From the NCBI GenBank assembly GCA_022823365.1, contig JAJDXG010000036.1, positions 1-54,873 of the forward strand: a stretch of 54,873 nucleotides of DNA, read 5' to 3'. Under the pieces are notes generated by a model. It was not told the origin of the DNA, searched no databases, and worked only from the letters and a program-made list of their open reading frames with translations. Below, piece by piece: positions 13,814 through 37,063 of this stretch (positions within the stretch are counted from its first letter, which is position 1; each line of letters starts with the position of its first letter). This stretch comes from Gemmatimonadota bacterium (lineage in GTDB: Bacteria; Gemmatimonadota; Gemmatimonadetes; Longimicrobiales; Gaopeijiaceae). The position numbers were made by a program, and so were the translations under genes.

Positions 13814-15091
13814 TCACGCCGCCGAGGACGCATCCTCGTCGGGGCGGACCGCCTCCGGGACGGCTAGCGCCAGCGTCTCGATACGGTCCGCGACCCGCTG
13901 TGCCGGGTCGCGAAGCTGCTCGATGGACCAGTCAGCGGCGTAGCCTTCGGTCACATCGTCCCGGCGCGCGTGGTTCACAAGGCGCTTCGTGAGCGAGCGG
14001 GGGAGCATGAGCTCGCGTTCGGCCACCGTGATGAAGGCGTTGCGGAGACCGTGGAACCAGAACTTCGTTCCGCCCGCACGTCCGATGCGTGCATACAGGT
14101 GTTGCAGTTCCTCCACGTGTCCCGAGGCGCTGGTCGAGGACGGGAAGACCCACGGAACGGACGGACCGGTTCCGTTGCCGGCCTCCCCACGCCGGCGGGC
14201 GAGGATCTCGGAGAGCTGGCGCGTGATGGGAAGCTCCAGGGGAACGCCACTCTTGGTCTCCTCGATCCGGAAGGTCCCGCGTTCCAGATCCACCTGGTCC
14301 CAGCGCAGGCCGAAGATCTCGCCCAGGCGCATTCCGGTGTAGAACCCGAACCAGAAGATGTCCCGGGTCGCCGGGACGATGACTTCCGACTCGATTCCAG
14401 TCCGCCACCGCGGCAGAATCTCCGCGGGCGCTGAGATACGCCGCCGCACGCTGCGGTGGTAGCGCCCTCCCCCGTCGAGCCACAGGTCCACCGGGTTGCG
14501 GAGGCCCTCATGGTCCACACAGGGACGCCGGTACGCCGACCGCAGCAGCGATGTCGCGTGGTTGGCGATGGCCCAGCCGTGCCGCTCGGTGAGAACGTGG
14601 AACCGACCCTCCACATCCCGGCGCGTGATGGTGTCGAGCGGCCGCGACATCCAGTCGCCGAAGCAGTAGCGGATCTGGCCGCGGTACAGCCTGAGAGTGG
14701 TCGGCTTGCGATTCGGGTTGGCGGCGAGGAATTCCGCGAACGCCTCCCGCAGGAGCGGCATCCGGCGGGCGGCGTGGCGCTCCGCTGCGGGGTCGTCGCC
14801 CACCGCGACCCGGCCCAGCACCTCCTGCGCGACCCGCCGCGCCCGGTCGGGCGTCATCGCTCCGTAGCGTCCGATCACCACGCGCCGGTTGGGCGCCCTC
14901 CGCCCCCCGTTTCCCGACCGGTAGTTGACGACGAACGCCTTCGTCCCGCTGGGCTGAACCCGCACGCCGAAGCCTGTCAGCCGGTCATCCCAGGCGATCC
15001 AGGGTCTGGCCCCGGGTTCCAGGGACTCGACGGTTCGCTTGGTGAGGGTCAGTTTGACCTTCGCGATGCGCTTACGCGACGGTTGTGACAT
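13814..15091 (-). CDS. Tyrosine recombinase (integrase 1)
   Basis: A 425-residue phage-type integrase. The N-terminal arm-binding domain contains LTLTKRTVESLEPGARPWIAW, then a SAM-like core-binding domain (about 115-205) and a catalytic domain with the RHRHY set: Arg in TGMRLGEI, His-x-x-Arg in FHGLRNAF, His in VNHARRDD, and the nucleophilic Tyr in TEGYAADW. All catalytic residues are present. It is a close paralog of integrase 2 (18037-19356). Its start faces the lipoprotein A gene across 162 bp, and a paired TCAAC site lies 33 bp before its start codon. Length is normal and the gene is intact. Confidence 0.92.
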   Translation of the reverse strand: MSQPSRKRIAKVKLTLTKRTVESLEPGARPWIAWDDRLTGFGVRVQPSGTKAFVVNYRSGNGGRRAPNRRVVIGRYGAMTPDRARRVAQEVLGRVAVGDDPAAERHAARRMPLLREAFAEFLAANPNRKPTTLRLYRGQIRYCFGDWMSRPLDTITRRDVEGRFHVLTERHGWAIANHATSLLRSAYRRPCVDHEGLRNPVDLWLDGGGRYHRSVRRRISAPAEILPRWRTGIESEVIVPATRDIFWFGFYTGMRLGEIFGLRWDQVDLERGTFRIEETKSGVPLELPITRQLSEILARRRGEAGNGTGPSVPWVFPSSTSASGHVEELQHLYARIGRAGGTKFWFHGLRNAFITVAERELMLPRSLTKRLVNHARRDDVTEGYAADWSIEQLRDPAQRVADRIETLALAVPEAVRPDEDASSAA

Positions 15092-15124
15092 GAAGGTACA
15101 GCTCCGGGGGGATTGGCGCGCCGG

Positions 15125-15148
15125 CGATCAACCCGCGATCAACACCCG
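15125..15148 (+). repeat. TCAAC-N6-TCAAC site 2, before integrase 1
   Basis: CGATCAACCCG repeated as CGATCAACACC with an 11-bp period, one helical turn. It begins 33 bp upstream of the integrase 1 start codon. Integrase 2 has the equivalent site 30 bp upstream of its own start in the same orientation relative to the gene. This conservation suggests an integrase arm site or an autoregulatory operator. Confidence 0.7.
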
Positions 15149-15253
15149 AGAAAGCAATCCCATTTGATCGGCGGCGTAAGGCGAGAGTGGGAACGGCAAT
15201 TCGGGCGGAAAAGTATATGTCAGGTGTGACACGGACTCCTTCTCCTTCTTGCC

Positions 15254-17401
15254 ATGTTCCTGGGTGCCGGTCTCGTGCTCACAGGTTGTGGCGACGACGA
15301 GACGGCGACGACGCCGGCACCGGCTCCGCCGCCGCCACCCGCGCCAGCTCCGGAGCCTGAGCCGGAACCCGAGCCTGAGCCGGAGCCGACCCCGTTCCAC
15401 GCCCACTTCGAAATCGAGGATGACGCGGACTCACCGTATCCGATGATTCCGGACAAGGACGACGACGAGGAAACGGCCATGGCGCACGTGAACCCGGAAA
15501 TGATCGTTGACGTGCACGGGCCGGCCATCCTCACGGCGCTGTTCGTTGAGGGCGCCAGCCCGATCGGTCTCGTTCCGGGCGAGAACATGCCGTTCACCTA
15601 CGTGGACTGGCAGGCCATGCAGAGCATGGTGGTCACGACCGGCGTCACCTTCGCCGTGCAGCCGGTGGAGATCGGGGCGAACCAGGTTCCGCTGCCGATC
15701 GGTGACGCGACGCTCGTGACCTGCGGTCCGTTCGAGTGCGCCGAGGGCGCGACTGCCCCGATGCTCTCGATCGCCAATTCGGCGGTGTGCGCGGCTTGGG
15801 ATCCCTCGGTGGAGATCATGGTCGGCAAGGTGGACAACGACGTCATTCCGCCCGAAGAAGCGACCGACGACGCCACCGCCTCCGCCACCGGCGTTGACAC
15901 GAACGACGGCGTTGACCTCGGCATCGTGACCAGTTCCAGCCTCGAGATGAACGTCAAGCACGTCTTCTCCGGCGTTGCCGGCGGCACGAACACCTCCAGG
16001 ACCGTCAAGGCCGCGAAGGGCAGCAACAAGACGCTCGAAATGGCCGCGGTCGCATCGATCCATGTTGATGCGGACGTCGACGTCACTGGCGCCGGGACGG
16101 CGGCCGCTCCCTACGGTGTCGATGAGAGCGAGGTCTGCGACAACACCTACGACGCCGGCAGTCTCACGGACAAGCCCAAGGGCTGCTTCCGGCTGCGCGG
16201 GCCGGGCGCCGGCAGGGGCGACAACGACCCCGGCAAGGGCGCCAACTACCTGTCCGGCTGGAGCATCGAGTTGTCCCCGGTCGGTGGCGACGTGGGTTGG
16301 GGCAATGTCGATTGGGAAGACAACCCGTTCGAGGATCTCGAGTGTGGCGCCGCGGAGCCGATCATGGTGGCCGACCACGTGGACATCTGCGAGATGTTCG
16401 ACGCCGAAGTCGACCTCGCCACCGGCAAGGGCTGGGAGCCGACCGTCGTGTTCCGTTCGGAGACTCCGGGATTCACGGAAACCACCCCTCCGACCGGCAA
16501 TCAGGTGGTCATGTGGAAGGCCGACGCCAGCGCTGCCAGCGGGACCAAGATGTTCAAGACGATCTGGTTCGACGACAACCTGGACGGAAAGATCCTCAGG
16601 GACACCAAGACTCGTCCGATGCAGCGCAACTCCGACAACAGCGACAACGTCGCCGGCGACAAGTTCAACGACCTCTACAACCACAACGGCCGAGACCAGA
16701 ACATCGAGCAGATCTGGGAGTGGCTCACCGATGACGATAACGACCTGACTTCGGGCGACCTCGGCTTGGTGGATCTGGTGAGTTCCAAGGACGACCGGAA
16801 GACGGCCGACGACGAGCGGACCATTGCGGTCGAGGAGTGCCCGTCTGGCACCAGTTGGGCTCCGAGAGACGGTTATTCCGCGGACGGAACCGGCACCACC
16901 AGGACCGCCACCGCTCTGGATGGCACCGGGTGCAAGACCTCAGCTCAGAGAACAGGCCGTCTGGCGGGCGTCGCGCGGACGCGGTCCGCCACCGCGACCG
17001 CGGCTCATCCCGACGGCAACGCGGACAACTACGAGGAACTCGATAGCAGCGCCACCGTCACCGCCACTGCCTTCGCAGAAGCTACCACCACTGCTGCGAA
17101 CAATCTGAACAACCGCAAGGTCATGGCCAACGCGGGTGACTTCTACAAGTGCACCGAGGATGACGGCGGCGACGACCCCGGTGCCGATTCCGATGAGCCC
17201 AACACTATCTGCGACACGGAATGGACGCGGGACGTGACGATTACGTTCGCGGACGGCACCTTCGGGTGCTCGACCACCCGTGACATCACCGTCACCTGCA
17301 CATGGGATGCGGACGGCAGCATGGCGCAGGGCCGCAACGCGCTGCCCTCTGCGTTCAGCGCAGCCGACAAGAAGTTCTTCCTGAAGTGCACGGCGAGTTG
17401 A
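15254..17401 (+). CDS. Large surface lipoprotein A, start region lost
   Basis: A 715-codon frame paralogous to lipoproteins B, D and, in part, F. It has a lipobox LVLTGC, a Pro-rich spacer with repeated Glu-Pro pairs (about residues 22-45), a conserved domain with GANQVPLPIGDATLVTCGPFEC (about 135-160) and a long acidic Cys-containing region ending in FFLKCTAS. Motifs such as FDDNLDGKI resemble calcium loops. No known family is recognised. The only possible start, ATG 15254, leaves 11 residues before the Cys, with no positive charge and no ribosome binding site; the hydrophobic stretch continues upstream in frame for eight codons to a TGA with no start codon. B and D have complete signal peptides there. 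A is thus probably silent or 5'-truncated, although the remaining frame is intact. Confidence 0.8.
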   Translation: MFLGAGLVLTGCGDDETATTPAPAPPPPPAPAPEPEPEPEPEPEPTPFHAHFEIEDDADSPYPMIPDKDDDEETAMAHVNPEMIVDVHGPAILTALFVEGASPIGLVPGENMPFTYVDWQAMQSMVVTTGVTFAVQPVEIGANQVPLPIGDATLVTCGPFECAEGATAPMLSIANSAVCAAWDPSVEIMVGKVDNDVIPPEEATDDATASATGVDTNDGVDLGIVTSSSLEMNVKHVFSGVAGGTNTSRTVKAAKGSNKTLEMAAVASIHVDADVDVTGAGTAAAPYGVDESEVCDNTYDAGSLTDKPKGCFRLRGPGAGRGDNDPGKGANYLSGWSIELSPVGGDVGWGNVDWEDNPFEDLECGAAEPIMVADHVDICEMFDAEVDLATGKGWEPTVVFRSETPGFTETTPPTGNQVVMWKADASAASGTKMFKTIWFDDNLDGKILRDTKTRPMQRNSDNSDNVAGDKFNDLYNHNGRDQNIEQIWEWLTDDDNDLTSGDLGLVDLVSSKDDRKTADDERTIAVEECPSGTSWAPRDGYSADGTGTTRTATALDGTGCKTSAQRTGRLAGVARTRSATATAAHPDGNADNYEELDSSATVTATAFAEATTTAANNLNNRKVMANAGDFYKCTEDDGGDDPGADSDEPNTICDTEWTRDVTITFADGTFGCSTTRDITVTCTWDADGSMAQGRNALPSAFSAADKKFFLKCTAS

Positions 17402-17480: not shown

Positions 17481-17526
17481 TACGCGACCCTTTTTCGGCG
17501 GTTGCGGGAGCCTGCGGGAAGACCCG

Positions 17527-17545
17527 GGATCAACACAGGATCAAC
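17527..17545 (+). repeat. TCAAC-N6-TCAAC site 3, after lipoprotein A
   Basis: GGATCAACACA GGATCAAC, the same 11-bp-spaced pair as site 2 and in the same orientation. Sites 2 and 3 are 2.4 kb apart and enclose the lipoprotein A gene with its terminator. Confidence 0.65.
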
Positions 17546-17985
17546 TGATTCTCGGATCCCGGGCGATCTGAGGGAGGGAAGGACGCCGTTCCGCTACCCC
17601 CGGCACCGTTGCCGGGGACCCCGTGAGGTGCATCTTCGCCCCTCTCGGTCGGCCAATTCCGCCCCTTCTCGGGCGAAAACGGGCGAAAACGGGCCGTAAT
17701 CCACCGCAGCCCCCCGAATTCCCCACCCAAACCGCCGGGCGCAGAGGTGCCGTCGGCTCCCTGGGACGGCGCGGGAACGGCGGAACGGGCGTCGGCGAGC
17801 GCGTCCGTGGTCGAGGCGGCGAACCGCGTACCGCAAGAGTGATAAGGGAGGTGATACACGGATTTCGGCGGTGTGCGGCATCGGCCCCTGAATCCGCGAC
17901 TTAGGGCCGGTTCGGGCCGGTTTTCGGCGGCTCTTTCGGACACCGGTTCTCCCGTGTTCCCGACCGCGGGGCCATTCCGCGGCAT

Positions 17986-18006
17986 GTGTTGACACCGGGT
18001 TGAACC
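17986..18006 (-). repeat. TCAAC-N6-TCAAC site 4, before integrase 2
   Basis: On the minus strand it reads GGTTCAACCCGGTGTCAACAC. It ends 30 bp before the integrase 2 start codon and has the same orientation relative to that gene as site 2 has to integrase 1. The plus strand contains TTGACA, so part may also be a -35 box; I see no good -10. Confidence 0.65.
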
Positions 18007-18036
18007 GTTCTTCCGGCTCTGGCCAAGACTCGACGC

Positions 18037-19356
18037 ATGACGAACACCGCCAACGGCAAACGGACCGCCAAGGTCAAGCTCACCCTCACCAAACGGACGG
18101 TCGACAACCTCCAGCCCGCCGACAGGCCCTGGATCGCCTGGGACGACCGGCTCGTCGGCTTCGGGGTCCGCGTCCAACCCTCGGGGGCGAAGTCGTTCCT
18201 CATCAACTACCGCATCGGCAGCGGCGGCCGGAGGGCGCGGAACCGCCGCATCGCCATCGGGCGCTGTGGCCTCCTGGCCCCCGAGGAGGCCCGCCGCCTC
18301 GCCCAGGAGCTGCTGGGACGCGTCGCCCGCGGCGAGGACCCCGCCCAGGAGCGCGCCGACAGCCGAGGCATGCCCACCCTCCGGGAGGCGTTCGCGGAGT
18401 ACCTGACCGCGAACCCCAACCGGAAGACGAGTACCGAGGCGCTCTACCAGAGCCAGATGCGCTACTGCCTCGGCGACTGGCTGGCCCGGCCCCTGGACAC
18501 GATCACGCGCCGGGACGTGGAAGCGCGGTTCCATCGCGTCTCCCAGCGGAACGGGTGGGCGGTGGCGAACCACGTCATCGCGCTGCTGCGCTCCGTGTAC
18601 CGGCGGCCGTGCGTGGACCACGGGACGCTCCGCAACCCGGTGGACCTGTGGCTCGCGGGCGGCGGGCGGTACCACCGGGCCGTGCGTCGCCGGATCTCGA
18701 CGCCCGCCGAGACGCTGCCCCGCTGGTGGGCGGCCATCGAGGCCGAGGTGACGGTTCCCGCGACGCGGGACATCTTCTGGTTCGGGATGTATACCGGGAT
18801 GCGGCGGGGCGAGATCATGGGACTGCACTGGGACCGGGTGGACCTGGAGCGGCGGATGTTCCGGGTCGAGGCGACGAAGACGGGCGAGCCGCTGGAGCTG
18901 CCGATCACCCGGCAGTTGGCCGCGCTTGTCGAGCGCCGCCGCCTGGCCGCCAGCGCCGGCAACGGCGGCGCGCCGGCGTGGGTCTTCCCCTCGAGCGGCG
19001 GGTCGGGCCACGTCGTGGAGCTGCAGCATCTCTACCACCGGATCAGCCGGGCGGCAGGGACGAAGTTCTGGTTCCACGGGCTGCGGAACGTGTTCATCAC
19101 GGTTGCGGAGCGTGAGCTGATGCTGCCGCGTTCGCTGACGAAGCGGCTGGTGAACCACGCGCGCGGGAGCGACGTGACGGAGAGCTACGCGGCGGACTGG
19201 AGCGTTGAGCAGTTGCGGGAGCCGGCCCAGCGGATCGCGGACCGGATCGACGAGCTGGCGCACGGCGCTGCAACGGTTCCGGTCGGGTCCGGCTACCCGT
19301 GGCCGGCGCCCGCCGTTCCCGTCGCGACGGGAACGCGGTTCGGGATCGCTCACTGA
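18037..19356 (+). CDS. Tyrosine recombinase (integrase 2)
   Basis: A 439-residue integrase, clearly the paralog of integrase 1 over its whole length (shared KVKLTLTKRTV, RPWIAWDDRL.GFGVRVQPSG, RRPCVDH, NPVDLWL.GGGRYHR). Catalytic residues are intact: Arg in TGMRRGEI, His and Arg in FHGLRNVF, His in VNHARGSD, Tyr in TESYAADW. It points toward the mobilisation genes 380 bp downstream, so it may belong to the same mobile unit. The last 30 residues are a Gly/Pro-rich tail not shared with integrase 1. Confidence 0.92.
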   Translation: MTNTANGKRTAKVKLTLTKRTVDNLQPADRPWIAWDDRLVGFGVRVQPSGAKSFLINYRIGSGGRRARNRRIAIGRCGLLAPEEARRLAQELLGRVARGEDPAQERADSRGMPTLREAFAEYLTANPNRKTSTEALYQSQMRYCLGDWLARPLDTITRRDVEARFHRVSQRNGWAVANHVIALLRSVYRRPCVDHGTLRNPVDLWLAGGGRYHRAVRRRISTPAETLPRWWAAIEAEVTVPATRDIFWFGMYTGMRRGEIMGLHWDRVDLERRMFRVEATKTGEPLELPITRQLAALVERRRLAASAGNGGAPAWVFPSSGGSGHVVELQHLYHRISRAAGTKFWFHGLRNVFITVAERELMLPRSLTKRLVNHARGSDVTESYAADWSVEQLREPAQRIADRIDELAHGAATVPVGSGYPWPAPAVPVATGTRFGIAH

Positions 19357-19722: not shown

Positions 19723-19734
19723 AACGGTGCGCGC

Positions 19735-20073
19735 ATGGCTGAGCGCCGCACCGTGAGAGCCCACGTCCGCCTGTCGCCCGTGGAGCTCGCCGCCTGGCGC
19801 GCCAAGGCGGCGGCCGTCGGCGTGCCGCTGTCCGACCTGCTGCGGCAGGCCATGGCCCGGACTCGGCCGTGGACGCCAGCAGCCGCCGCCGTCGAGCGCG
19901 AGCGCACCCGGCAGGTTGCCCGCGTCGGGAACAACCTGAACCAGCTCGCGCGCTGGGCGAACACCCATCCCTCGGAGGCCGAGGCCGTCGAGGTTGTCGC
20001 CCAGCTGGTGTCGGTCGAGCGGGCGCTGCTCGCCCTGGCCCGGCTCGGCGGAGAGGACACCGATGCACATTAG
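19735..20073 (+). CDS. mobC: Relaxosome accessory protein, MobC-like
   Basis: A 112-residue basic protein. The N-terminus (RTVRAHVRLSPVELAAWRAKAAAVG) looks like a ribbon-helix-helix DNA-binding domain, and GNNLNQLARWAN (about residues 65-76) is the signature found in bacterial mobilisation protein MobC. MobC helps the relaxase open DNA at oriT. I place the start at ATG 19735 because the preceding codons are the tandem repeat. Its last 11 bases overlap the relaxase start, so the two are translationally coupled. Confidence 0.85.
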   Translation: MAERRTVRAHVRLSPVELAAWRAKAAAVGVPLSDLLRQAMARTRPWTPAAAAVERERTRQVARVGNNLNQLARWANTHPSEAEAVEVVAQLVSVERALLALARLGGEDTDAH

Positions 20074-21628
20074 GTTCTTCGGTGGCGGGAAGGGCTCGGC
20101 CCAGGCAGCCGCCAACTATCTCGTCGGCGAACGCGACGCTGCGGGGACCGTGCGTCCGGGTGTCGAGGTCCTGCGCGGGAACCCGGGCCTGGTGGCCGCC
20201 GTCGCCGACTCGCTGGAGTTCGAGCACAGGTTCCGGTCGGGCCTGATCACCTGGGCGCCGGACGACCGGCCGACCGACGAACAGGTCGGGGCTGTTCTCG
20301 ACGAGTTCGAGAAGACGGCCTGGGCGGGACTGGAGCCCGACCGCTACGCCTGGACGGCGGTGCTCCACCGCGAGCACGGCACCGGGGTCCATGTCCACAT
20401 CCTCACTGCCCGCTGCGACCTGGAGACGGGCCGCAGCCTGAACATCGCTCCCCCCGGTTGGGAGAAGACGTTCGGCACGCTGCGCGACGCGTTCAACCAC
20501 CAGCACGGCTGGAGCCGGCCGGACGACCCGGCGCGCGCCAGGGCGCACCAGCCGGGCCATCGCGCCTACCTCGAGGCGGCGAAGCTGCGGACCGGCCTCG
20601 AGCACGAAGCCGGCCCGCGCGAACTGATCCGCGACTACCTGCTGCAGCGGGTCGAGCACGGCCTGGTGCGGAGCCGCGCCGACGTGGTCGCCGCCCTGGA
20701 GGAGGCCGGCTTCGAGGTGCCCCGGCAGGGCAAGGACTACCTGACCGCCCGCGATCCGGACAGCGGGAAGCGGCTGCGGCTGAGAGGAGCGCTGTATGAG
20801 CACGACTTCCAACCCGAACGACTTGAGCGCCCGGCTGCGGAGCCGGACGGAAGCCGACCGCCGTCAGATCGAGGAGACGATGGCGAGCGAGCAGCGGCGG
20901 CTTGGCGAGAGGTTGCGCGCCGTCGTGAACGACGCGCTGCGTACCACCGAAGCCGATACGGCGGTGACGGTCGCACGGGTGCGCGTGATGCTGCTGAACG
21001 CGTGGCTGCGTCCCCTGGTGGTCGGGGTGATCATCTTCCTCGGAATCAGCGGTGGGAGCTGGGGGCTGATGCAATGGCTCTCGGCGGGCATCCAGAGCCG
21101 GATCGAGACCCTGGCGGCGCTGGACGTTCAGATCGAGGACGCACGCGAAACCCTCGCCGGGATCGAGGAGACGACGTGGGGCGTGACGCTGTTGGACATC
21201 GACGGGGACCGGTTCGTGGTGCTGCCGGTCGGGACAATAGCCCATCCGCCCTGGACCGTGGGCGGGCGGCCTGCCTTGAAGCTGTCGAGCGAGTGAGGGA
21301 TTTCTTTGACCGAACTAGAAACACAGTTGATGACCGCCTTGCGGAGGTTGTCCGCGCAGTTCGAGACGGAACGGCGGCAGCACGCCGAGGAGCGGCGGCA
21401 GGACTCCGAGGAGCTCGAAGCCTTGCGGCAGCGCGTCGAGCGGCTGACCGCGGGCAACGAAGCCTTGCAGCAGCGAGTCGAGCAGCTCAGCGGGCAAGTG
21501 ACGTACTTGGCCCAGGACTACAGGACGCTCGCCGAGAGGTTGCGCGAGCCCTGGAGCTGATGCGCCAGCGCAGGTCGAGGCGGGACCGGGACTACGGTCC
21601 GAGCCGCGATTACGGTCCGAGCCGCTGA
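20063..21628 (+). CDS. mobA: Relaxase, MobA/VirD2-type
   Basis: A 521-residue mobilisation nuclease. The N-terminal relaxase domain (about 1-240) contains the metal-binding motif GTGVHVHILTARCD near residues 112-125, with a conserved AWTAVLHREH ahead of it, and a Tyr near the N-terminus (NYLVGE) that could be the nicking residue. The C-terminal half is Arg/Asp/Gly-rich and repetitive, ending in a duplicated YGPSR. That half is low in complexity because it overlaps two other genes in the +1 frame. The relaxase nicks one strand at oriT and leads it to a recipient. There are no type IV secretion genes here, so the element would need a helper. Confidence 0.88.
   Translation: MHIRFFGGGKGSAQAAANYLVGERDAAGTVRPGVEVLRGNPGLVAAVADSLEFEHRFRSGLITWAPDDRPTDEQVGAVLDEFEKTAWAGLEPDRYAWTAVLHREHGTGVHVHILTARCDLETGRSLNIAPPGWEKTFGTLRDAFNHQHGWSRPDDPARARAHQPGHRAYLEAAKLRTGLEHEAGPRELIRDYLLQRVEHGLVRSRADVVAALEEAGFEVPRQGKDYLTARDPDSGKRLRLRGALYEHDFQPERLERPAAEPDGSRPPSDRGDDGERAAAAWREVARRRERRAAYHRSRYGGDGRTGARDAAERVAASPGGRGDHLPRNQRWELGADAMALGGHPEPDRDPGGAGRSDRGRTRNPRRDRGDDVGRDAVGHRRGPVRGAAGRDNSPSALDRGRAACLEAVERVRDFFDRTRNTVDDRLAEVVRAVRDGTAAARRGAAAGLRGARSLAAARRAADRGQRSLAAASRAAQRASDVLGPGLQDARREVARALELMRQRRSRRDRDYGPSRDYGPSR
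20796..21296 (+). CDS. MbeB-like mobilisation protein nested in the relaxase gene
   Basis: A 166-residue protein read entirely within the relaxase gene in another frame. The first 65 residues are a charged helix (LSARLRSRTEADRRQIEETM), then one membrane segment LVVGVIIFLGISGGSWGLM (about 74-92), a second coiled segment and a short C-terminal domain. ColE1-type plasmids have mbeB in exactly this position inside mbeA. The membrane helix argues that the frame is real, since a shadow of an Arg/Asp-rich domain would not make one. It probably anchors the relaxosome to the membrane. Confidence 0.75.
   Translation: MSTTSNPNDLSARLRSRTEADRRQIEETMASEQRRLGERLRAVVNDALRTTEADTAVTVARVRVMLLNAWLRPLVVGVIIFLGISGGSWGLMQWLSAGIQSRIETLAALDVQIEDARETLAGIEETTWGVTLLDIDGDRFVVLPVGTIAHPPWTVGGRPALKLSSE
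21306..21560 (+). CDS. MbeD-like coiled-coil mobilisation protein nested in the relaxase gene
   Basis: An 84-residue coiled-coil protein starting at TTG 21306, nine bases after the mbeB-like stop and in its own frame within the relaxase gene. TELETQLMTALRRL and later QQRVEQLSGQVTYLAQ closely match the pattern of MbeD/MobD (TELE.QLL.AL.QL ... QVQ.LSGQ). GTGAGGG before the start can serve as ribosome binding site. MbeD proteins help mobilisation or entry exclusion in ColE1 relatives. Confidence 0.75.
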   Translation: MTELETQLMTALRRLSAQFETERRQHAEERRQDSEELEALRQRVERLTAGNEALQQRVEQLSGQVTYLAQDYRTLAERLREPWS

Positions 21629-23206: not shown

Positions 23207-23433
23207 GGTGAACGGAGCGCCGTGTCGGTCATCTATGTATCACTTCATGCCAGTGCATTCATGGGCCTGAGCCGGAACGCAATGACACTCTAGGGCATTC
23301 TAAACCGTTGATAATCAGCTGACAAACGGGACTTCGGCGCGTCTTCTCGGAACAGTTGGCAGCGTAATGGCAGATGGTGGCGGACGAAAGAGAACCGCAA
23401 CTATACACGGTTTTCGGAGCTCTGGAGGGGGTT

Positions 23434-25910: not shown

Positions 25911-26019
25911 ACGTCGCAACCGCACTCACCCTCACGGCGTCAACGCCGGGGAGCCACGCTGCGGGTTCCTCCTCCCATGGCCGCGTTGGGCCGGCGCGGC
26001 CCCGGCTAGACTCGACGGC

Positions 26020-27036
26020 GTGAAGCGGCTGACAGCGAAGGGCGCGGGGCTGGCCGAACGGCGGTCCAGCGTCGCCCCGCCTCCCCAGCCGGAAGGTGTC
26101 CGCCGGCAGTCACGCGACCGCGGCGCCCCCCGCTCAGCCCTCGAGTTCCCCGGCTGCTACTCGAGGCCGATGACCCGCGCCCAATACGAGGCGCACGAGG
26201 GCCGGGTCGAGTTCTTCGACTCCCGCGCGGAGATCGCCTGGATGGTCCGCGAGCCGACGCACGCGCCGCACGAGGAGCCCCGGTACCGACTGGTGGAGCT
26301 TCTGGCGCGAATCGCCCAACTGCGGGGATCGCCGATCAAGGGCCTCGGCGAGACCCGGATCCGGTGGATGGAGGCCGGGTCCGGGGAACATCGCTCCATC
26401 CACCCCGACCAGATGCTGTTCCTGCATCCGGGCCGGACCGAGGGAAAGATCTCCCAGTATCTCGAAGTTGGGGAGGACCCGTATCCGGACGTGGTGCTGG
26501 AGGTGGACAGCACGACCGACGTGCGGCGAAACCGGCTGACGCTGTACGAGGAGTGGGGGTTTCCGGAGCTGTGGGTGGAGGTTCCGGACGCGTATGCGCC
26601 GGGCCGCCCGGCGGGGTTGCGTTCCGGCCTGCGGATCTATGTGCTGGAGGCGGGCCGGTATCTACGGTCCGAGGAGAGCCTGGCCTTCCCAGGCTGGCGG
26701 GCGGTGGAGATCCACCGGGCGCTGAACGAGCCGGCCCTCTCGGAGGAGACATCGGCGGTGCTGTCGCGGGTAGGCCGGGCGCTCGGGGAGCGGGAGGGCA
26801 CGGGTCCCGACGATGACCCCCTGCTCCGCGAGCAGCGCGCCGCGGGCCGCGCCGACCTGATCCGGGCGCTCCTCGGCCAGCGGGGCGTTGCCGTCCCGCC
26901 GGACTTCCCCGAAGGTCTCGCCCCGCCGCACCTCGACACCCTCCGCACCGCGTCTGCGGAACAGCTCCTCGCCGCCGCGTCCGCGGCCGACAGCGTGGCT
27001 GACTTCCTGGCCCGTCTCGACGACCCGAATCCCTGA
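26020..27036 (+). CDS. Uma2-family (DUF820) PD-(D/E)XK nuclease-like protein
   Basis: A 338-residue protein. The Uma2 core has MTRAQYEAHEGRVEFFD, PDVVLEVDSTTDVRRNR (catalytic-type Asp and Glu) and LYEEWGFPELWVEVPD (Glu-x-x-Glu-like strand), followed by IYVLEAGRY and a C-terminal helical tail typical of the long Uma2 subgroup. These proteins are widespread, often in many copies, with a predicted nuclease fold and unknown role. I place the start at GTG 26020, since the family has about 50 residues before the MTR motif; ATG 26170 is the alternative. A 48-bp copy of its 3'-middle part is found at 27285. Confidence 0.82.
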   Translation: MKRLTAKGAGLAERRSSVAPPPQPEGVRRQSRDRGAPRSALEFPGCYSRPMTRAQYEAHEGRVEFFDSRAEIAWMVREPTHAPHEEPRYRLVELLARIAQLRGSPIKGLGETRIRWMEAGSGEHRSIHPDQMLFLHPGRTEGKISQYLEVGEDPYPDVVLEVDSTTDVRRNRLTLYEEWGFPELWVEVPDAYAPGRPAGLRSGLRIYVLEAGRYLRSEESLAFPGWRAVEIHRALNEPALSEETSAVLSRVGRALGEREGTGPDDDPLLREQRAAGRADLIRALLGQRGVAVPPDFPEGLAPPHLDTLRTASAEQLLAAASAADSVADFLARLDDPNP

Positions 27037-27354: not shown

Positions 27355-28554
27355 ATGATGGCTGCTCTGAAGCCGAAACCGCCACGCCGTTCCAGCCTTG
27401 GGACCGTCGCTCCCGAAACGACTGCCCGGAGACGAAGCGCTCCTGGCAGGAGCGCGAGACACCGGGTCCGGTTCGCTCTTCCGGGATGGAACCCGATCAC
27501 TCTTCGTCTGGCCGTAGTGTGTTTCATCGCAACGTTCGGAGCGGCAGGGAATCCGGACAGGGTGGAGGCATATCGGTTCTACTCGTTGCGGGAGGCAAAC
27601 CCGATCCTCTCGGCGGCCGAGGCGAGCCGTTGGGACATCGCGGACTTCCCCTTGCGCTACCACCTGCAGGACAACACTCCGGACTACCTCGAGAAAGGCC
27701 AGTGGCGGGGCATTGTGGAGGATGGGCTTGCCGAGTGGACGGCGATTCGCACTGCCGACATTCGACTCTCGCTCGAACCGGACCTGGTTGAAGGAGACGG
27801 GGCGGACAGTGGAGACGAACGGCTCACGATCGGCTGGGTCTCGTCCGAAGGCGAAACGTGGAGCGGGCGAGCGCATCCAGTGTTCCGGGTTTCGACACAC
27901 CAGCTCGTGCATTGCGACATAACGATGAACGCAGATCGGTTCCGCGAGTGGCTGGACGATGGACTGGACCCGGACGTCGTCTACGATCTCGTGCGCGACA
28001 CGGTTGTCCACGAGGTGGGGCACTGCCTGGGTCTTCGACACACGGAGCCGCATCCGATCCCGGGCTGGCTGGAAGTCATCGAGGACCCGCCGCCGATTCC
28101 GGCGGGTTTTCTGCCCGAAACGGTCATGTCCTACGGTTTCGGCACCCGGGCGGCCGTCACCGAGGACGAAGCGACCGCCGTTTCCCTCCTGTACCCGGCA
28201 ACGGGTTTCAACGCAGCGCGCGGCGCCGTCTCCGGACGGCTTGTCCGAGACTCCGCGCCGGTGCCGTTCGCGTACGTCCAGGCCGTATACCTCGGTTCCC
28301 GGCCCCGGATGGGGCCTGGCGCCTTTGCGGACCAGGAGGGCTATTTCCACCTGCAGGGACTGGAGGCTGGACCCACACTGCTCTGGGTGCATCCGATCCT
28401 GATCCACTACTCGAATGCGCACGGCTCCCTGCTCACGATGGCGTTTGAGGGCGGCGGACTGGATGTACTTGACCAGTGGCAGTGGGTCAGCGTGAGGCCA
28501 GGCGAGACCGTGGGCGTGCCCGACCTCGTGTTGGCTGCTGGGCGGCTGCCTTGA
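27355..28554 (+). CDS. Secreted metzincin-type zinc metalloprotease
   Basis: A 399-residue protein with a basic N-terminus and one hydrophobic segment (LRLAVVCFIATFGAAG, about 51-66) acting as signal or anchor. The zinc-binding HExGHxxGxxH motif is HEVGHCLGLRH, with His 219, Glu 220, His 223 and His 229, and the Met-turn is VMSYG about 30 residues on. After the protease comes a carboxypeptidase-regulatory-like beta domain (about 285-345). It resembles matrixin-like secreted proteases, and its paralog is at 50369-51472. Its stop overlaps the start of the following lipoprotein gene (TTGA), so the two are coupled. Confidence 0.85.
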   Translation: MMAALKPKPPRRSSLGTVAPETTARRRSAPGRSARHRVRFALPGWNPITLRLAVVCFIATFGAAGNPDRVEAYRFYSLREANPILSAAEASRWDIADFPLRYHLQDNTPDYLEKGQWRGIVEDGLAEWTAIRTADIRLSLEPDLVEGDGADSGDERLTIGWVSSEGETWSGRAHPVFRVSTHQLVHCDITMNADRFREWLDDGLDPDVVYDLVRDTVVHEVGHCLGLRHTEPHPIPGWLEVIEDPPPIPAGFLPETVMSYGFGTRAAVTEDEATAVSLLYPATGFNAARGAVSGRLVRDSAPVPFAYVQAVYLGSRPRMGPGAFADQEGYFHLQGLEAGPTLLWVHPILIHYSNAHGSLLTMAFEGGGLDVLDQWQWVSVRPGETVGVPDLVLAAGRLP

Positions 28555-29426: not shown

Positions 29427-29987
29427 GGCGACGGTCGGCTCCGGCCAGAGGCCCGTGACCGGTCGCTGAGAACGCAACCGGGCCACCACCGCGAACCCCG
29501 ATGGAGCACGAGGGCGCCGCGGCCTGGAACCCCCACCGGGAGAAACGCCCATGATCGGGTCCTCCTGCACACCCCGCCCATCATGAAAACGGCGGAAACG
29601 GCTTGGAACGCCGGTCTCCGACCGGCACGCGGCCCGGAGGGCCGCAGGCGCCGTGTCGCGGTTTGCCCCCAAGGGACGCGGGACAAGCACGTCCCTCAGT
29701 TCCGGTCGGCTTCGACGGAGAGCAACATCCCGCCGGTCGGCGTCACGACGCGCGCGGTGCCGAGCACCGCGCGTGCCGGTCGGAGAGCGGCGTTCCAAGC
29801 CGGCGGCGCCACCAAGGCGCTCGACCGATCCACCGGTCTGCATTTTCGCAGCAACTGGAGCGCGTGCCGGCTGAAGCCGGCGCTCCAAGCCGTACACACA
29901 AATCCCGCCGCGCGGCGGGTGTCACGGGAGGCGGCGGGGCCGCTCCCCGTGGAATCCCGGTCCTGAACGACCGGGGTGAGACCTCTT
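29427..29987. other. Repeat-rich non-coding stretch
   Basis: Three REP-like copies (about 29603-29650, 29745-29800 and 29860-29895) and, at 29890-29985, a degenerate copy of the terminator region found at 165-275. No gene is supported; long frames here are repeat shadows. Confidence 0.55.
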
Positions 29988-30230
29988 CTAGCTGGAGGCC
30001 TTGATCGAGGTCACCTTGATCGTGTTGGTCGCCTCGTCGAGGGTGCCCATCACCGTGACCTCCATGCCCAGGTGCTCGAGGGCCTTCTCGCCGGTGATGT
30101 CGAGCAGGTGGAACCCGTCCGGGCTCGCGCCCCACCTCTTCGCCGCTGGGCCGTAATCGGTGGGCAGCGGGTCATCGAGATGGGCCAGGCGGTCGGCGAA
30201 GCGGTCCGTGGCCGCGCGGACCAGCCGAAC
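29988..30230 (-). pseudogene. 3' remnant of a copy of the 276-602 gene, fused to foreign sequence
   Basis: The last 44 codons (about 29988-30125) code GFHLLDITGEKALEHLGMEV and on to TVMGTLDEATNTIKVTSIKA, almost identical to the end of the gene at 276-602. Upstream the frame stays open but becomes unrelated (RLAHLDDPLPTDYGPAAKRW), with no signal peptide or start. The matching 5' leader lies about 1 kb away at 31173-31255, so the copy was broken up by insertion or rearrangement. Confidence 0.75.
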
Positions 30231-31383: not shown

Positions 31384-33435
31384 CTACGGTTTGCGGAACA
31401 CCTGTCTCGCGCTGATGGCCCACGCGCCCGTCAAGTCCGGGCTGCCTGTTCGACCCGCCGCACCGTCCGCGCTAATCAGCTTCGACCGGACACATGCGTA
31501 GATGTTGTGCTGCGACCCGGTTGCTGCTGAAGCGACTACCGCCGCGAGAAGATCCCCGCCGGTATCGTTAGCGCTAATCGTGATACCGGAGATTGCGTTG
31601 TTTGACCCAACAGTGACGGTACCAGTCGCTGCGTCATCGGTGCCTGAAGCGGTTGCCTCGCAGACGGCCTTTACCTCGGCAGCCGTAACACTGTTGTCAT
31701 CCGATACGACGACCATCTCGTCGTATCCGGACCCAAGACGGGGCTGGTCGGTGCGCTCGGAGACGGTCCATACGAGTTTCGTGATCGCGTGAGTCGCGCT
31801 ATTGCCCGTGCCCGTCGTGGTGATGCTGCTCTCGGCTGCCACGTATTGGGGCCGCGGGGGGGTACCCGGTAGCGTGGCAACTGCCGGCAATTCCGCCCAT
31901 GCGGATTCGCCATCGTCGTTCGTGGCCCGGAAACAGAGCTTGTACTTGGTATACCTGGTGGGGCTCCGCACCGTGTATTGGAACGACACGTTGTCCGCAG
32001 TCGAGTCCAGATTCCTGCCAGGGCTGCCGTCGTCGCACTTCGCTGGCAGATCATCTCCGATTCCCGCGGAAAGGATGCGGACCTCGTAGTCGAACCCCTT
32101 GTCCAACATCACGGGCCAACTCAAAGACGTCGTGAGTCGGTCGTCGGTATCGTCGGTGACGACCGGGGGATCATCGGTACCGTCGCTGTTAGCGTCTCCT
32201 CGCTTCGGCTGAGTAGCGGCCCAAGTCCACGAGAGGTTCCCGTACTGCCGAACATCCCGGTCATCCATCCATGTCGTCTGCACACAGAGCAGGGCGACCT
32301 TCCCGGCCACCAAGGCCGGGGTCTGGGTGAGCCTGCCGGCGGTGTCTGCGGTGCTCCCCTCCACCTTTATGCGCGTATTGAAGGTTCTAGCTCCCCACAG
32401 AGAGTTGTTGCTGCCATCGACAGCTGTCGGCTTCGGGCACGGATCCTCATCAGATATACCGGGAGCGTTAGCCGTATCCGACTCAATGTAGTAGAGCTGG
32501 TACTCATGTGACCGATCCGCGACCTGATCCCAGATCCAAGTGATTGAGTGAGTGCTTCCGTCAACCTCCGACTCCCAGATCATGTTCAGGTCGTCGTCGC
32601 CACCGGTGACGGTCGTACGGGGCGGAGTCCCCGTTGTGGAAACCGCGTCGTCGAGCTCGGCCCACTCGCTAACGGTCAGCGTGTCGTCGTCGTTGGCCGG
32701 CACCGCCCGGACCCGGAAGTTGTACGACGTGGCCTCGTCGAGCCCCGTGGCCTCGCATGCCGCGCTGTCCACTTCGTTGTCGTTACCGCCACAACTGGCG
32801 TCCGTCCAGGCACCACCCGACGCTCGCTGCTCGACCTCGTAATGGTCCGCGTCCCTGACGCTGTTCCACTCCAGGGCAATGTCGTTGTCCCCTCGATCCC
32901 TCACGCTCAAACCCGTCGGGGCGGACAGCGCGGTCGCCGGTGGCGGGGTCGGCGGCGCGGCGGTCGAACCCGACACGCCGTCGCTCCAGTCGCTGAAAGT
33001 GAGATCGGTCAGGGAAGTGCCGGCGCCTGAACGGACTCGGAAATATCCAGTCATGTTGCCCGACAGGTTCTCGACCGTATACGACGTTTGCGGAGCGACG
33101 ATCGGGCCGAACGTCTGGTCCTCGTCCGTGAACGCGGAATCCGGGCTGAACTGGCCCACGTAGCCGAGCGCACCTTCCACGGCATCCCACGTCCAGGTGA
33201 TGGAGCTGGACGTCGTCGCCGTCACCCGGAGGTTCCCGGGAGTCGCCGGGCCGGTTGGCTCCGGCTCGGGGGTCGGCTCCGGGGCCGGCGGAGGTGGCGG
33301 TGGCGGCGCCGGGGTGGTCGGCGCCGGCGTCTCTTCCTCCCCGCACGCCGAAATCAACATGCCCGCGCCGAGCAGCAGCGCAAGCAACAGAGCCCACCCG
33401 CGAGCGGATGAGAACTTGCCAGTAAACGACTTCAT
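31384..33435 (-). CDS. Fibronectin type III lipoprotein E1
   Basis: A 683-residue lipoprotein. Signal with lipobox LISAC (Cys 31), a Pro/Glu spacer (about 38-62), then two FN3-like domains (about 64-165: ITWTWDAVEGALGYVGQFS, and 172-265: IALEWNSVRDADHYEVEQ), followed by several less regular beta regions, also FN3-like, to the C-terminus. The first 270 residues are close to E2; the rest differs. GGGAGGTAGGTGGT before the ATG is the ribosome binding site and is shared with E2. The 3' half is visibly poorer in GC than the 5' half. FN3 modules suggest adhesion or glycan-associated binding on the surface. Confidence 0.85.
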   Translation of the reverse strand: MKSFTGKFSSARGWALLLALLLGAGMLISACGEEETPAPTTPAPPPPPPPAPEPTPEPEPTGPATPGNLRVTATTSSSITWTWDAVEGALGYVGQFSPDSAFTDEDQTFGPIVAPQTSYTVENLSGNMTGYFRVRSGAGTSLTDLTFSDWSDGVSGSTAAPPTPPPATALSAPTGLSVRDRGDNDIALEWNSVRDADHYEVEQRASGGAWTDASCGGNDNEVDSAACEATGLDEATSYNFRVRAVPANDDDTLTVSEWAELDDAVSTTGTPPRTTVTGGDDDLNMIWESEVDGSTHSITWIWDQVADRSHEYQLYYIESDTANAPGISDEDPCPKPTAVDGSNNSLWGARTFNTRIKVEGSTADTAGRLTQTPALVAGKVALLCVQTTWMDDRDVRQYGNLSWTWAATQPKRGDANSDGTDDPPVVTDDTDDRLTTSLSWPVMLDKGFDYEVRILSAGIGDDLPAKCDDGSPGRNLDSTADNVSFQYTVRSPTRYTKYKLCFRATNDDGESAWAELPAVATLPGTPPRPQYVAAESSITTTGTGNSATHAITKLVWTVSERTDQPRLGSGYDEMVVVSDDNSVTAAEVKAVCEATASGTDDAATGTVTVGSNNAISGITISANDTGGDLLAAVVASAATGSQHNIYACVRSKLISADGAAGRTGSPDLTGAWAISARQVFRKP

Positions 33436-33698
33436 ACCACCTACCTCCCGGTGCGGTGCTGGAGGGTCAAGTAATGCTTGAACCTTCGGACATAAGGTCG
33501 TGGGCAGCCTAACACACTTTGCCGGCCGACTTCTAGCGCAACGCCAGCAGGCCCCGGAGAGTTCGGAGGCGCGCTACCCAGAGCCTCCGTCTCCCGCAGA
33601 ACCCCCATTCTATACGCACTTGGAGAGGGGTCGCCGTCGTGAAATCGGTGTGATTTACAACCCGCGGTTCGCGCGCGACACCGCCAGGTGACGGGACG
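33436..33698. other. Spacer between E1 and integrase C
   Basis: No gene. It contains TCTATACGCAC at 33609-33619, which recurs at 21994-22004 beyond the 3' end of integrase B, and the E1 promoter region. Confidence 0.4.
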
Positions 33699-34880
33699 TT
33701 ACGAACCGGCGGATCCGGTCAGGAACGCGGCCCACTGCTCCATGAGTTCGCGTCGGCGCTCGAACAGGTCGCTGCGGCGGTAGGCCGCCTCGACGGCGTT
33801 CGTGTTCACGTGCGCGAGCGCCAGCTCGCACACCTCCCGCGGCGCGTCCGTGCACTCGGCCGCCCAGTCCCGGAAGCTCGACCGGAACCCGTGCGGCACG
33901 GCCTCGATGCCGAGCTGCTGGATCAGCCTCGAGATCGCTGCCCGGGAGTGCAGCCGGCCGGTCGGGGATGGAAACACGAGTCCCGAGCGGCCCGTCGCCG
34001 CGCTCGCCTCGGCGAGCACGGCGAGCGCCCGTGCGGAAAGCGGCACCCGGTGCTCCCGGTTCGTCTTCATCCGCTGCGCCGGAATCCGCCACTCGCGCTC
34101 CTCGAGGCGGATCTCCTCCCACCGCGCGCCGCGCACCTCGCCGCTCCGGCACGCAGTCAGCACCAGGAACTCGAACGCCCACACGGTCGCGGGATGGGCC
34201 CTGGACGCGCGCACGGCGGCGATCGCGCCGGCGACCTCACCGTACGGAAGCGCAGCGAGATGCCGTGGCCGGACTCCCTTCTTTGGCAGCGCCGCGCCGA
34301 TGGCATCGCCGGCCGGGTTGTCCTCCCGGTAGCCCTGCGCCACCGCCCAGCGCATCACCGCCCCGATGCGCTGCCGCACCTTCCGCGCCGTGACCCGCTT
34401 CTCGTTCCAGATCGGAACGAGAACCGCCATCACGTCCGTGGTGCTGATCCGGTCCACCGGCCGCGCCCCGAGTTTCGGCATGGCGTAGTTGCGGAGGGTC
34501 CACCGCCAGTCCTTCTCGGATCTGCCGCCTTTCTTCCATCCCGCCGCATGAATGGCAAGGACGGTCTCCGTCGCTTCCTCGAAGCTGGGGACGGTCCGCT
34601 GGCGGCCCGTCACCAGTTCGCCCCGGCTGCGGGCCACGAGGTTGAGGACGCACTTCTGGCGCGCATCGGCCAGGCTGACGTGGGGCCAGACCCCGAGGCC
34701 GAGGTTGCGGGCGCGCCCGTCCACCTGGATGCGCTGCGCCCAGGACTTCGCGAGGTGGCCGCGGGCGGTGCGCTTGACGAGCAAGGAAAGCCCCCCGGAG
34801 CCGCGTCCGTCCCCGTAGCGGCCCGGCTCCCGGACGGTGGCGACGAAGCGTGCGGAGAGGCGATAGGGGCGGCTGGTCAT
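33699..34880 (-). CDS. Tyrosine recombinase with DUF4102 arm domain (integrase C)
   Basis: A 393-residue P4-type integrase, paralogous throughout to integrase B (shared PYRLSARFVATV, GRYGDGRGSGGLSLLV, RNLGLG.WPHVSL). Catalytic residues are Arg in TACRSGEVRG, His and Arg in PHGFRSSFRDW, His in LAHVNTNA and Tyr in EAAYRRSD. I start it at ATG 34880, matching integrase B; the frame continues upstream without conservation. It lies exactly between two FN3 lipoprotein genes that point away from it on both sides, in the same head-to-head relation to E2 that the other integrases have to A and B. Confidence 0.92.
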   Translation of the reverse strand: MTSRPYRLSARFVATVREPGRYGDGRGSGGLSLLVKRTARGHLAKSWAQRIQVDGRARNLGLGVWPHVSLADARQKCVLNLVARSRGELVTGRQRTVPSFEEATETVLAIHAAGWKKGGRSEKDWRWTLRNYAMPKLGARPVDRISTTDVMAVLVPIWNEKRVTARKVRQRIGAVMRWAVAQGYREDNPAGDAIGAALPKKGVRPRHLAALPYGEVAGAIAAVRASRAHPATVWAFEFLVLTACRSGEVRGARWEEIRLEEREWRIPAQRMKTNREHRVPLSARALAVLAEASAATGRSGLVFPSPTGRLHSRAAISRLIQQLGIEAVPHGFRSSFRDWAAECTDAPREVCELALAHVNTNAVEAAYRRSDLFERRRELMEQWAAFLTGSAGS

Positions 34881-35065
34881 GGCATTTGCGGTGCCGGTTT
34901 TCAATGTTAGATGGGTATCAGATATCGGGCAACGTGGGCCCGAAACCGGTGATCCGGCGGCAAACGTGTCTCCCCGTAGAAGATTGACAACAGGTGAGTA
35001 ACGCGACACTCGAACGAGTCGACGCGAGAAGAAACGCCCGGGCACCGCACCGGGAGGTAGGTGGT

Positions 35066-37063
35066 ATGAAGTCGTTCACTGGCAAGTTCGCATCCGCTCG
35101 CGGGTGGGCTCTGTTGCTTGCGCTGCTGCTCGGCGCCGGCATGATGGTCTCGGCCTGCGGGGACGAAGAGGTGCCGGCTCCGACCACCCCGACGCCGCCG
35201 CCAGCGCCGCCGCCGGCACCGGCGCCGGAACCGGAGCCGACCGGTCCGGGCACGCCTGAGAATCTTCGGGTAACCGGCACTACTTCCAACTCTATTACGT
35301 GGTCGTGGAATGCGGTTGAGGGCGCGCTGGGCTACCAGGGCCAGTTCAGCACGGACGCCACCTTCACGGACACCGACCCGACGTTCATCGTCGTGGCCCC
35401 GGCAACCTCCCACACGGTTTCCAACCTGTCGGGCAGCACCACCGGGCATTTCCGGGTCCGCTCCGGAACGGGGACTTCGCTCACCGACCTGACCTACAGC
35501 GAGTGGACCGACGGGGTCTCCGGGACGACGGCCCCGCCGCCCGCCGCGGTGGCGCTCGACGCTCCCGACGACGTTCGCAGCACCGATCGGACCGAGGATT
35601 CGATCACCCTCGAGTGGGACAGCGTTGCCAACGCCGAAACCTACGAAGTCGAACAGCGCGAACCGGGTGACGACTGGTCCGACGCGAGTTGCGGGTCTGC
35701 GACCGCGGACAACGAGGTCGAGGACGAAGAGTGCGTGGCGAGCGGCCTCGACGAAGGGACCGACTACGACTTTCGGGTGCGAGGCGTGCCGGCGGATGAC
35801 GACGAGGCGTATACCGTGGGCGCCTGGAGCGACGTCGCGGAAACCCGCACGGAAGGCGACGCCCCTCCGGAGCCGACGGCGCCGGTTGGTGGCGGGATGG
35901 GCAACCTCAACGTCCGCTGGGAGAGCACGGGCACCGGCATCACCTGGATCTGGGACCGGATGCCGGACGCAACGTACGACATCGACGCCGAAGTGGTTGC
36001 CTACAACGACAGTACCAATCCGTGCGAGGGTGCGGACTACGGCCAGGGCACTGCCTCATCGGCGACGTCTTACCTGCTTACAGCGACACCGGGCCAGGTC
36101 GCTCTGCTCTGCGTTCGCACCAACAACCCGGACAACCTCTCCGAAAACCTGTCTTTCGCATGGGCCGCCGCGACTCCCGTTGCGCCTGCGCTGGCCTCAA
36201 CCCCCACTAGGGCAAGGGACACCGACAAGGACGACGCAGACGACATGACGACCGCTCTGCTGTGGGAGACTTTCGCTGTCAAGGGCGGCTTCAACTATGC
36301 GTACCGGGTGGTGGCGGACTCGCACACACCCGAGGCAACCAGGCAAATCATCAATGGCACCAATACAAGTGCTGACGACGTGCAGGCTGCCTGTGATGCC
36401 GGAACGCCCCTCGACGACGGTGAGAGCGATGTGGACTTCACCGATGACAACATCGTCATGGATAGCGGCCTGAAGACCTTTACCGGGTATCTCCTCTGCG
36501 CGCGCTACAGCAACAGTGCCGGTACGTCCGGCTGGGCCGTGCCGGCCAACAACGCCGAGAACTACACGCGACCGGCAAGGCCGTCCAGCCCGACGGTCTA
36601 CACATCCCTCGTGGATGAGATGACAACCGAGACAACCGTGGTTTGGCGCGTTGCCACGAGGGGACGGAACGGGTTGCCAAGGCTCAACACCGGTTACAAC
36701 GTCCGGACGATCCAGCATCTGGAAAGGAAGGCGAATACTGACAACGACGGCACGGTTGCCATCAAGACGCCGACGGCGGCCAACTGCGGACTCACCGCGG
36801 CAGGCGCCGACTACACCCGGAGCGCGAACCTTTCGGCCGCTGAGGTCGACAATGATGGGGACGGAATCGTGATCAGCCCCTCCGCTGCCTTTGCCCGCCC
36901 GGCCGCTTACAGCACCGACACAAATAACCCGACTCCAGCTCAGGATAGAACGGGAAACCGGAAGGTGTATGTCTGCGTCCAGGCAATGAGCACCGCGACG
37001 TCGGAGGGACCGTGGGTGCTGAGCTCCGCCTATACGGTAAAGCAGCAGGCGGCGTCGAACTAG
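35066..37063 (+). CDS. Fibronectin type III lipoprotein E2
   Basis: A 665-residue lipoprotein with lipobox MVSAC (Cys 31), Pro/Glu spacer and two FN3-like domains (about 62-160: ITWSWNAVEGALGYQGQFS, and 168-262: ITLEWDSVANAETYEVEQ), then further weak beta repeats and a C-terminal AYTVKQQAASN. Start ATG 35066 follows CGGGAGGTAGGTGG, identical to the E1 site; the upstream ATG at 34994 is less good. E1 and E2 are inverted paralogs around integrase C. The C-terminal halves differ and the 3' half is GC-poorer, as in E1. Confidence 0.86.
   Translation: MKSFTGKFASARGWALLLALLLGAGMMVSACGDEEVPAPTTPTPPPAPPPAPAPEPEPTGPGTPENLRVTGTTSNSITWSWNAVEGALGYQGQFSTDATFTDTDPTFIVVAPATSHTVSNLSGSTTGHFRVRSGTGTSLTDLTYSEWTDGVSGTTAPPPAAVALDAPDDVRSTDRTEDSITLEWDSVANAETYEVEQREPGDDWSDASCGSATADNEVEDEECVASGLDEGTDYDFRVRGVPADDDEAYTVGAWSDVAETRTEGDAPPEPTAPVGGGMGNLNVRWESTGTGITWIWDRMPDATYDIDAEVVAYNDSTNPCEGADYGQGTASSATSYLLTATPGQVALLCVRTNNPDNLSENLSFAWAAATPVAPALASTPTRARDTDKDDADDMTTALLWETFAVKGGFNYAYRVVADSHTPEATRQIINGTNTSADDVQAACDAGTPLDDGESDVDFTDDNIVMDSGLKTFTGYLLCARYSNSAGTSGWAVPANNAENYTRPARPSSPTVYTSLVDEMTTETTVVWRVATRGRNGLPRLNTGYNVRTIQHLERKANTDNDGTVAIKTPTAANCGLTAAGADYTRSANLSAAEVDNDGDGIVISPSAAFARPAAYSTDTNNPTPAQDRTGNRKVYVCVQAMSTATSEGPWVLSSAYTVKQQAASN

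Follow-up and report, generated by a model that had tools for sequence, protein, structure and literature searches.

Tyrosine recombinases at the 5′ ends of protein genes

The Vpma/Xer1, Vsa/HvsR and Vsp loci of mycoplasmas combine a tyrosine recombinase gene with an adjacent surface-lipoprotein family, whose genes share a common recombination site at their 5′ ends and include copies without expression signals of their own (PMC2268961). The Mycoplasma agalactiae sites precede the start codon by 1-72 bp (PMC2268961). Streptococcal integrative and conjugative elements (ICEs) with tyrosine integrases also target gene 5′ ends, for example those of ftsK and rbgA, and their insertion preserves the N-terminus of the target protein (PMC4701971). 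Here, we analyze a 54.9-kb contig (JAJDXG010000036.1; the whole contig is referred to as the window) encoding four tyrosine recombinases and six large lipoproteins, where three integrase genes stand head to head with a lipoprotein gene. We favor, with slightly better than even confidence, the view that each pair marks the terminus of a mobile, probably mobilizable, element that uses the 5′ end of a surface-lipoprotein gene as its attachment core, so that upstream leader and lipoprotein body reassort.

Similar to the Vpma and Vsa loci, the window has recombinase genes adjacent to a lipoprotein family with a common 5′ site, but here several integrases each have their own conserved leader, the core lies in signal-peptide codons, a relaxase is present and the system is spread over many genomes. 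With the 5′-end ICEs, whose direct repeats measure 12-54 bp, it shares an integrase by the putative attachment site, the 5′ end of a protein gene as target, and a relaxase (PMC4701971); unlike in these elements, a multi-copy lipoprotein family is targeted, the N-terminus or start is replaced, and the neighborhood holds a body of the same family. In layout the locus appears most like the Vpma/Vsa loci (PMC2268961), and in its genetics most like the 5′-end-targeting ICEs (PMC4701971). The same arrangement was not found in the literature searched. P4-type genomic-island integrases usually use the 3′ ends of tRNA or tmRNA genes, in contrast to the lipoprotein 5′ ends seen here.

Integrases are paired with lipoproteins at fixed distances

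The three pairs consist of the following genes.

13814-15091, minus strand: IntA, tyrosine recombinase (PF13356 and PF00589)
15254-17401, plus strand: LipA, EP-spacer lipoprotein body without an upstream start codon
22031-23206, minus strand: IntB, P4-type tyrosine recombinase (Pfam Arm-DNA-bind_3 and Phage_integrase)
23374-25620, plus strand: LipB, EP-spacer lipoprotein
33699-34883, minus strand: IntC, P4-type tyrosine recombinase (Pfam Arm-DNA-bind_3 and Phage_integrase)
35066-37063, plus strand: E2, FN3-containing lipoprotein

A sequence-only reading of this DNA had described the three head-to-head pairs with gaps of 162-230 bp. The gene coordinates confirm the pairs and the lower value, and the upper one was too large: the start-to-start gaps of IntA/LipA, IntB/LipB and IntC/E2 are 162, 167 and 182 bp, respectively. 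The two integrase subfamilies and two lipoprotein families that it distinguished are likewise real. IntA matches the fourth integrase, Int4, at 73% and IntB matches IntC at 76%, with ~30% over ~150 aa across the subfamilies; the lipoproteins comprise an EP-spacer family (LipA, LipB, D and F) and an FN3-containing family (E1 and E2), of which D, F and E1 lack a divergent integrase. The sisters IntB and IntC stand beside different lipoprotein families and the unrelated IntA and IntB beside one and the same, bearing out the claim that the arrangement was assembled more than once.

Related genomes, which that reading proposed to survey, were examined by integrase-only searches, after which the neighborhoods were read. 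Divergent pairing and fixed spacing recur in 28 of 30 integrases of the IntA, IntB and IntC types, versus 0 of 38 related integrases. A lipoprotein core (the junction sequence described below) accompanies 6/7 IntA-type and 14/15 IntB integrases (≥90% identity, intact start), and an FN3-family lipoprotein accompanies all eight IntC-type integrases. Neither core was found next to related integrases at 75-80% (0/27) or ≤63% identity (0/11). The random placement of integrases that would have counted against the proposed exchange system holds for the sister integrase clades only, not for IntA, IntB and IntC. The sample was not random, as some genomes came in via lipoprotein searches; within the family searched with the integrase only, and counting genomes not preselected by lipoproteins, a lipoprotein lay beside 9 of 10 IntB copies (≥90%, intact start). 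The IntA homologues in L037, L072 and L190 (97, 93 and 90%, respectively) each have a divergent lipoprotein beside them.

From integrase start to core, the distance is 148-152 bp for IntA (4/4), about 249 bp for the variant IntA′ (2/2) and 241-258 bp for IntB (14/15 with intact start). For IntC, the ribosome-binding site (RBS)-ATG motif follows after 174-177 bp, or the lipoprotein starts at about 189 bp (8/8). The pairing exceeds chance, because the identical divergent layout and spacing recur in other genomes.

All four integrases scored above the PF00589 cut-off in a Pfam search of the window, their translations show the tyrosine-recombinase motifs R, K, HxxR, H and Y, and the genes are under purifying selection (ratio of nonsynonymous to synonymous substitution, dN/dS, about 0.06-0.18). 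The best models were P4-type/PRK09692 or weak generic XerC/XerA; the domain content of IntB and IntC (Arm-DNA-bind_3 and Phage_int_M) fits P4-type genomic-island integrases along the entire protein, with the NCBIfam NF007246 score under its curated cut-off. A phage origin was rejected, as homologues in viral contigs were limited to IntB, at 31-43% identity, with none for IntA. Small IHF/HU-like genes occur near IntC-type and sister integrases (L147:2757-3035; also L210, L217 and L224), as expected of IHF-dependent integrases.

The leaders end at a short core in the lipoprotein genes

Each integrase together with its 150-260 bp leader constitutes a conserved unit. The leaders and cores of the three modules are as follows.

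15092-15238, plus strand: leader A, conserved between IntA and the core in a three-genome alignment; paired GATCAAC at 15126 and 15137
15239-15250, plus strand: core A, CTTCTCCTTCTT, leader/body junction within signal-peptide codons
23207-23460, plus strand: leader B, supplying the start and N-terminal codons fused to LipB; 16 homologous leaders aligned
23461-23472, plus strand: core B, CTTCTCCTTCTT
33436-33698, minus strand: leader 1, on the 3′ side of IntC, ahead of E1; conserved in G002 and G162
34884-35041, plus strand: leader 2, between IntC and E2

Alignment of paralogues and homologues revealed that the EP leaders are conserved up to the 12-bp core, where lipoprotein homology starts, inside the codons of the hydrophobic core. 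The 16 IntB leaders can be aligned as far as the core and not past it. At least seven different leaders meet at the EP core (A, A′, B, D, F/G005, a G162 D-type and a G163 type), and types A, B1, B2 and B3 were each seen with both downstream haplotypes, GCCATGTTC (MFL) and ACCGTGACC (VTL); in G169, two nearly identical B3 leaders bear different haplotypes. Among the FN3 lipoproteins, both leaders flanking IntC stop at CACCGCACCGGGAGGTAGG, immediately before the start codon. In G171:C42, leader B stops at the core and is followed by non-lipoprotein DNA of another mobile neighborhood.

The core of IntA, IntA′ and IntB would then be the 12-bp signal-peptide stretch of the EP-spacer lipoproteins, and that of IntC the RBS/start region conserved among the FN3 lipoproteins, with the crossover presumably catalyzed by the integrases. 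The suggestion that the gap before each lipoprotein holds a recombination site was nearly right, save for the position: the junction lies at the end of the gap distal to the integrase, in signal-peptide codons (EP) or just upstream of the RBS (FN3). As a separate observation, a lipoprotein core in G167 (L226:1500-1560) is directly fused within an Int4-homologous coding sequence that lacks the first 120 residues.

Bodies change behind conserved leaders

In ten IntB modules, the identity of the integrases correlated with that of the leaders (Mantel r=0.80, p=0.003) but not with that of the bodies (r=0.22, p=0.11). The bodies of G170a and G171a are 83% alike and their leaders 65%; for the window and G169b, the integrases are 98% and the bodies 36% alike. 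The contig G169:C79 shares the window order IntA-lipoprotein-Int4-mob-relaxase-IntB-lipoprotein, with mostly 85-100% nucleotide identity at 13.8-15.4 and 17.5-23.6 kb versus about 5-70% in both lipoprotein bodies; identity breaks at about 15.39 kb (after the EP tract), ~17.50 kb (Int4 leader) and ~23.60 kb. Synonymous divergence between the window and the group genomes is 0.07-0.08 for Int4, the relaxase and Uma2, 0.18 for IntB and 0.35-0.58 for lipoproteins (pairs with similar bodies). The proposed exchange of surface lipoproteins is upheld as an evolutionary process: the haplotypes, the Mantel tests and the comparison with G169:C79 all indicate that leaders and bodies reassort.

Integrases could instead merely insert at the ends of lipoprotein genes, with ordinary homologous recombination among similar genes swapping the bodies. 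The signal/EP tract common to the paralogues offers enough homology for RecA, and sliding comparisons revealed mosaic bodies with breakpoints at many positions. Lipoprotein E2 of the window is itself a hybrid, where residues 1-130 resemble the divergent lipoprotein of G162 and the remainder its codirectional one; this exchange breaks near residue 130 and not at the core, a pattern resembling homologous recombination and a point against core-directed exchange. However, behind four or more leader types the haplotype already changes in the first few homologous bases, where homologous recombination should rarely resolve, integrases are repeatedly and specifically docked on these genes at a fixed distance, and leader and integrase remain together while bodies change. 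We consider this explanation unlikely, though far from negligible.

Several joined copies lack a start codon

No in-frame ATG or GTG lies upstream in any of the six IntA-linked lipoproteins, and one has only TTG. In the window, ATG 15254 of LipA sits within the hydrophobic core of the signal peptide; LipA as called has no n-region, because an in-frame TGA precedes the core by four codons and there is no upstream start. Among 13 readable IntB-linked copies, eight have a start within the leader and five have none. Judging from these reading frames, the start-less joined copies may be silent. Even where its reading frame is broken, leader B DNA remains conserved, suggesting that it is maintained as a DNA site. 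Lipoboxes are present in LipA, LipB and E2, and E2 likely starts at ATG 35066, behind GGAGGTAGG, rather than at GTG 34994. The predicted model of LipB (mean predicted local distance difference test, pLDDT, 61) had no PDB match at E≤0.001.

Such start-less copies (6/6 IntA-linked lacking a standard ATG/GTG start, 5/13 IntB-linked lacking any) are also what a dedicated within-cell switch might leave, where resident recombinases, as with Xer1/Vpma and HvsR/Vsa of mycoplasmas, place promoterless bodies behind an expression leader or flip the IntC segment that separates E1 from E2. The features bearing on the IntC region are listed below.

31384-33435, minus strand: E1, FN3-containing lipoprotein (PF00041)
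33262-33459, minus strand: inverted-repeat arm at the E1 5′ end, pairing with 35042-35239 at 88%
35042-35239, plus strand: inverted-repeat arm at the E2 5′ end, pairing with 33262-33459
37170-39329, plus strand: D, EP-spacer lipoprotein, without integrase and with a leader of another type; core at 37218-37229

IntC lies between the divergent E1 and E2, whose 5′ ends carry these 198-bp, 88% inverted repeats, and, measured against the E2-D pair, it is oriented differently in the window and in G162. The E1/E2 exchange is, nevertheless, neither reciprocal nor at the core, and the relaxase by IntB suggests element integration or transfer between cells rather than a dedicated switch, which we therefore regard as improbable. 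A simple IntC inversion between E1 and E2 lacks support as a clean event, given the breakpoint near residue 130 and an E1 body that is not the partner of the other G162 body. The leader of D (37143-37197), a piece of another gene, corresponds to part of a repeat that recurs at 214-417 and 29926-30129.

A relaxase block between two direct cores

Between LipA and IntB lie three further genes; the sequence-only reading overlooked both the orientation of Int4 toward the LipA 3′ end and the relaxase located between Int4 and IntB.

17495-18036, plus strand: Int4 leader, directly adjoining the LipA terminator; GATCAAC pair at 17528 and 17539
18037-19356, plus strand: Int4, tyrosine recombinase, sister of IntA (Arm-DNA-bind_3 and Phage_integrase)
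19735-20073, plus strand: small mobilization-protein-like gene, weak MbpA/MobA-like match; coordinates inferred from the L191:2399-2737 homologue and synteny
20063-21628, plus strand: MobA/VirD2-type relaxase (PF03432; NF047848 MbeA below cut-off)

Int4, with homologues at 98-99% in G169 and G170, faces the 3′ end of LipA. Its leader starts directly past the lipoprotein terminator in the window and G170; in G163 and G166, short insertions intervene. A motif scan found paired GATCAAC common to the IntA and Int4 leaders, facing the lipoprotein; by resemblance, these are possible arm-type sites. The relaxase adjoins IntB in many genomes, and the Int4-mob-relaxase-IntB block occurs in the window, G169 and G170, with parts in G166 and G167. 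With integrase and relaxase in one block, the locus is tentatively classed as an integrative and mobilizable element.

Two direct copies of the 12-bp core, at 15239 and 23461, bracket LipA, Int4, mob, the relaxase, IntB and leader B, as they do in G169:C79. If the pairs are indeed element ends, recombination between these cores would release an 8.2-kb circle with integrase, relaxase and lipoprotein body, leaving leader A joined to body B. On integration into another lipoprotein gene, the incoming body would be placed behind the resident leader and the resident body behind leader B, so that the displayed lipoprotein is exchanged. Copies joined without a start codon would be stored silent, and homologous recombination would further mix the bodies.

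Several points weigh against this scheme. Circles or a pair of empty and filled sites were not observed in the assemblies compared, which apparently are fragmented metagenome bins with contigs often broken at these repeats. Convincing inverted-repeat arms around the core were not found by eye, and the Int4-relaxase-IntB block ends without a common core unless LipA is counted in the element. Both direct cores also mark homologous genes.

A more elaborate version, which we put forward as doubtful but possible, is a cassette-exchange platform: the body would be bracketed by two outward-reading recombinase units, IntA/IntB at the signal-peptide core and Int4 behind the terminator, and bodies would move between leaders and cells on mobilizable circles, with integration changing the surface lipoprotein. 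If integration at lipoprotein 5′ ends is true, a single family of surface-lipoprotein genes has become, by convergence, the docking site of several unrelated integrases, and element integration directly alters the outer display of the bacterium. Recombinase-driven lipoprotein variation, known mainly from mycoplasmas, would then extend to uncultured Gram-negative-type bacteria, tied to gene transfer.

Contig provenance and surroundings

Window positions 136-12962 match G169:C90:20792-34014, from another family than the assembly holding the contig (G000), with 96-99% identity over 136-12600, and the first 13 kb have the tetranucleotide profile of the G169 family. From this match, the contig is probably mis-binned; a similar doubt attaches to G002:C405 and G103:C347. 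Recent cross-phylum transfer, to which identities of 41-56% for TopA versus 90-98% for the integrases had initially pointed, was rejected, mis-binning being simpler because of the 12.6 kb that are 96-99% identical to G169 and the matching tetranucleotide profile. At 12962 the homology to G169:C90 ends and G169 continues with other genes; no clean empty site is seen, and the island is therefore absent or different at that locus in this near-identical relative.

Since the genomes are apparently metagenome bins, the window contig looks mis-binned and contigs end within these genes and near the relaxase, the repeated signal/EP sequence might have led to false leader-body joins during assembly or binning. 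Yet about ten separate assemblies show the same pairing, spacing and 12-bp end point, misjoins would not yield a constant integrase-to-core distance, and the body differences span 2 kb, ending at the Int4 leader. An artefact of this kind is highly unlikely.

The remaining lipoprotein of the window is the only one with a native-type leader, also found in G005; none other was detected in the window.

51644-53974, minus strand: F, EP-spacer lipoprotein whose RBS and signal peptide are intact, no integrase

Predicted secreted zinc-metalloprotease-like genes (DUF4953/M10) occur around lipoprotein genes in the window (27355-28554 and 50369-51472) and in L037, L040, L141, L189 and G169:C90. Genes of the Uma2 family (putative nucleases) follow several EP lipoproteins, namely LipB in the window (25834-27036) and B and D in G162, with fragments in G162 C69 and G163 C31. 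Repetitive extragenic palindromic (REP)-like repeats, TTGGAACGCCGGTCTCCGACCGGCACGCG, lie in both orientations at 25728-25916 and 29599-29811, near the lipoprotein island. At 42951-48257, an alpha/beta-hydrolase gene is 82% identical to the C-terminal half of the adjacent GMC oxidoreductase fusion, a local duplication also present in G169:C5.

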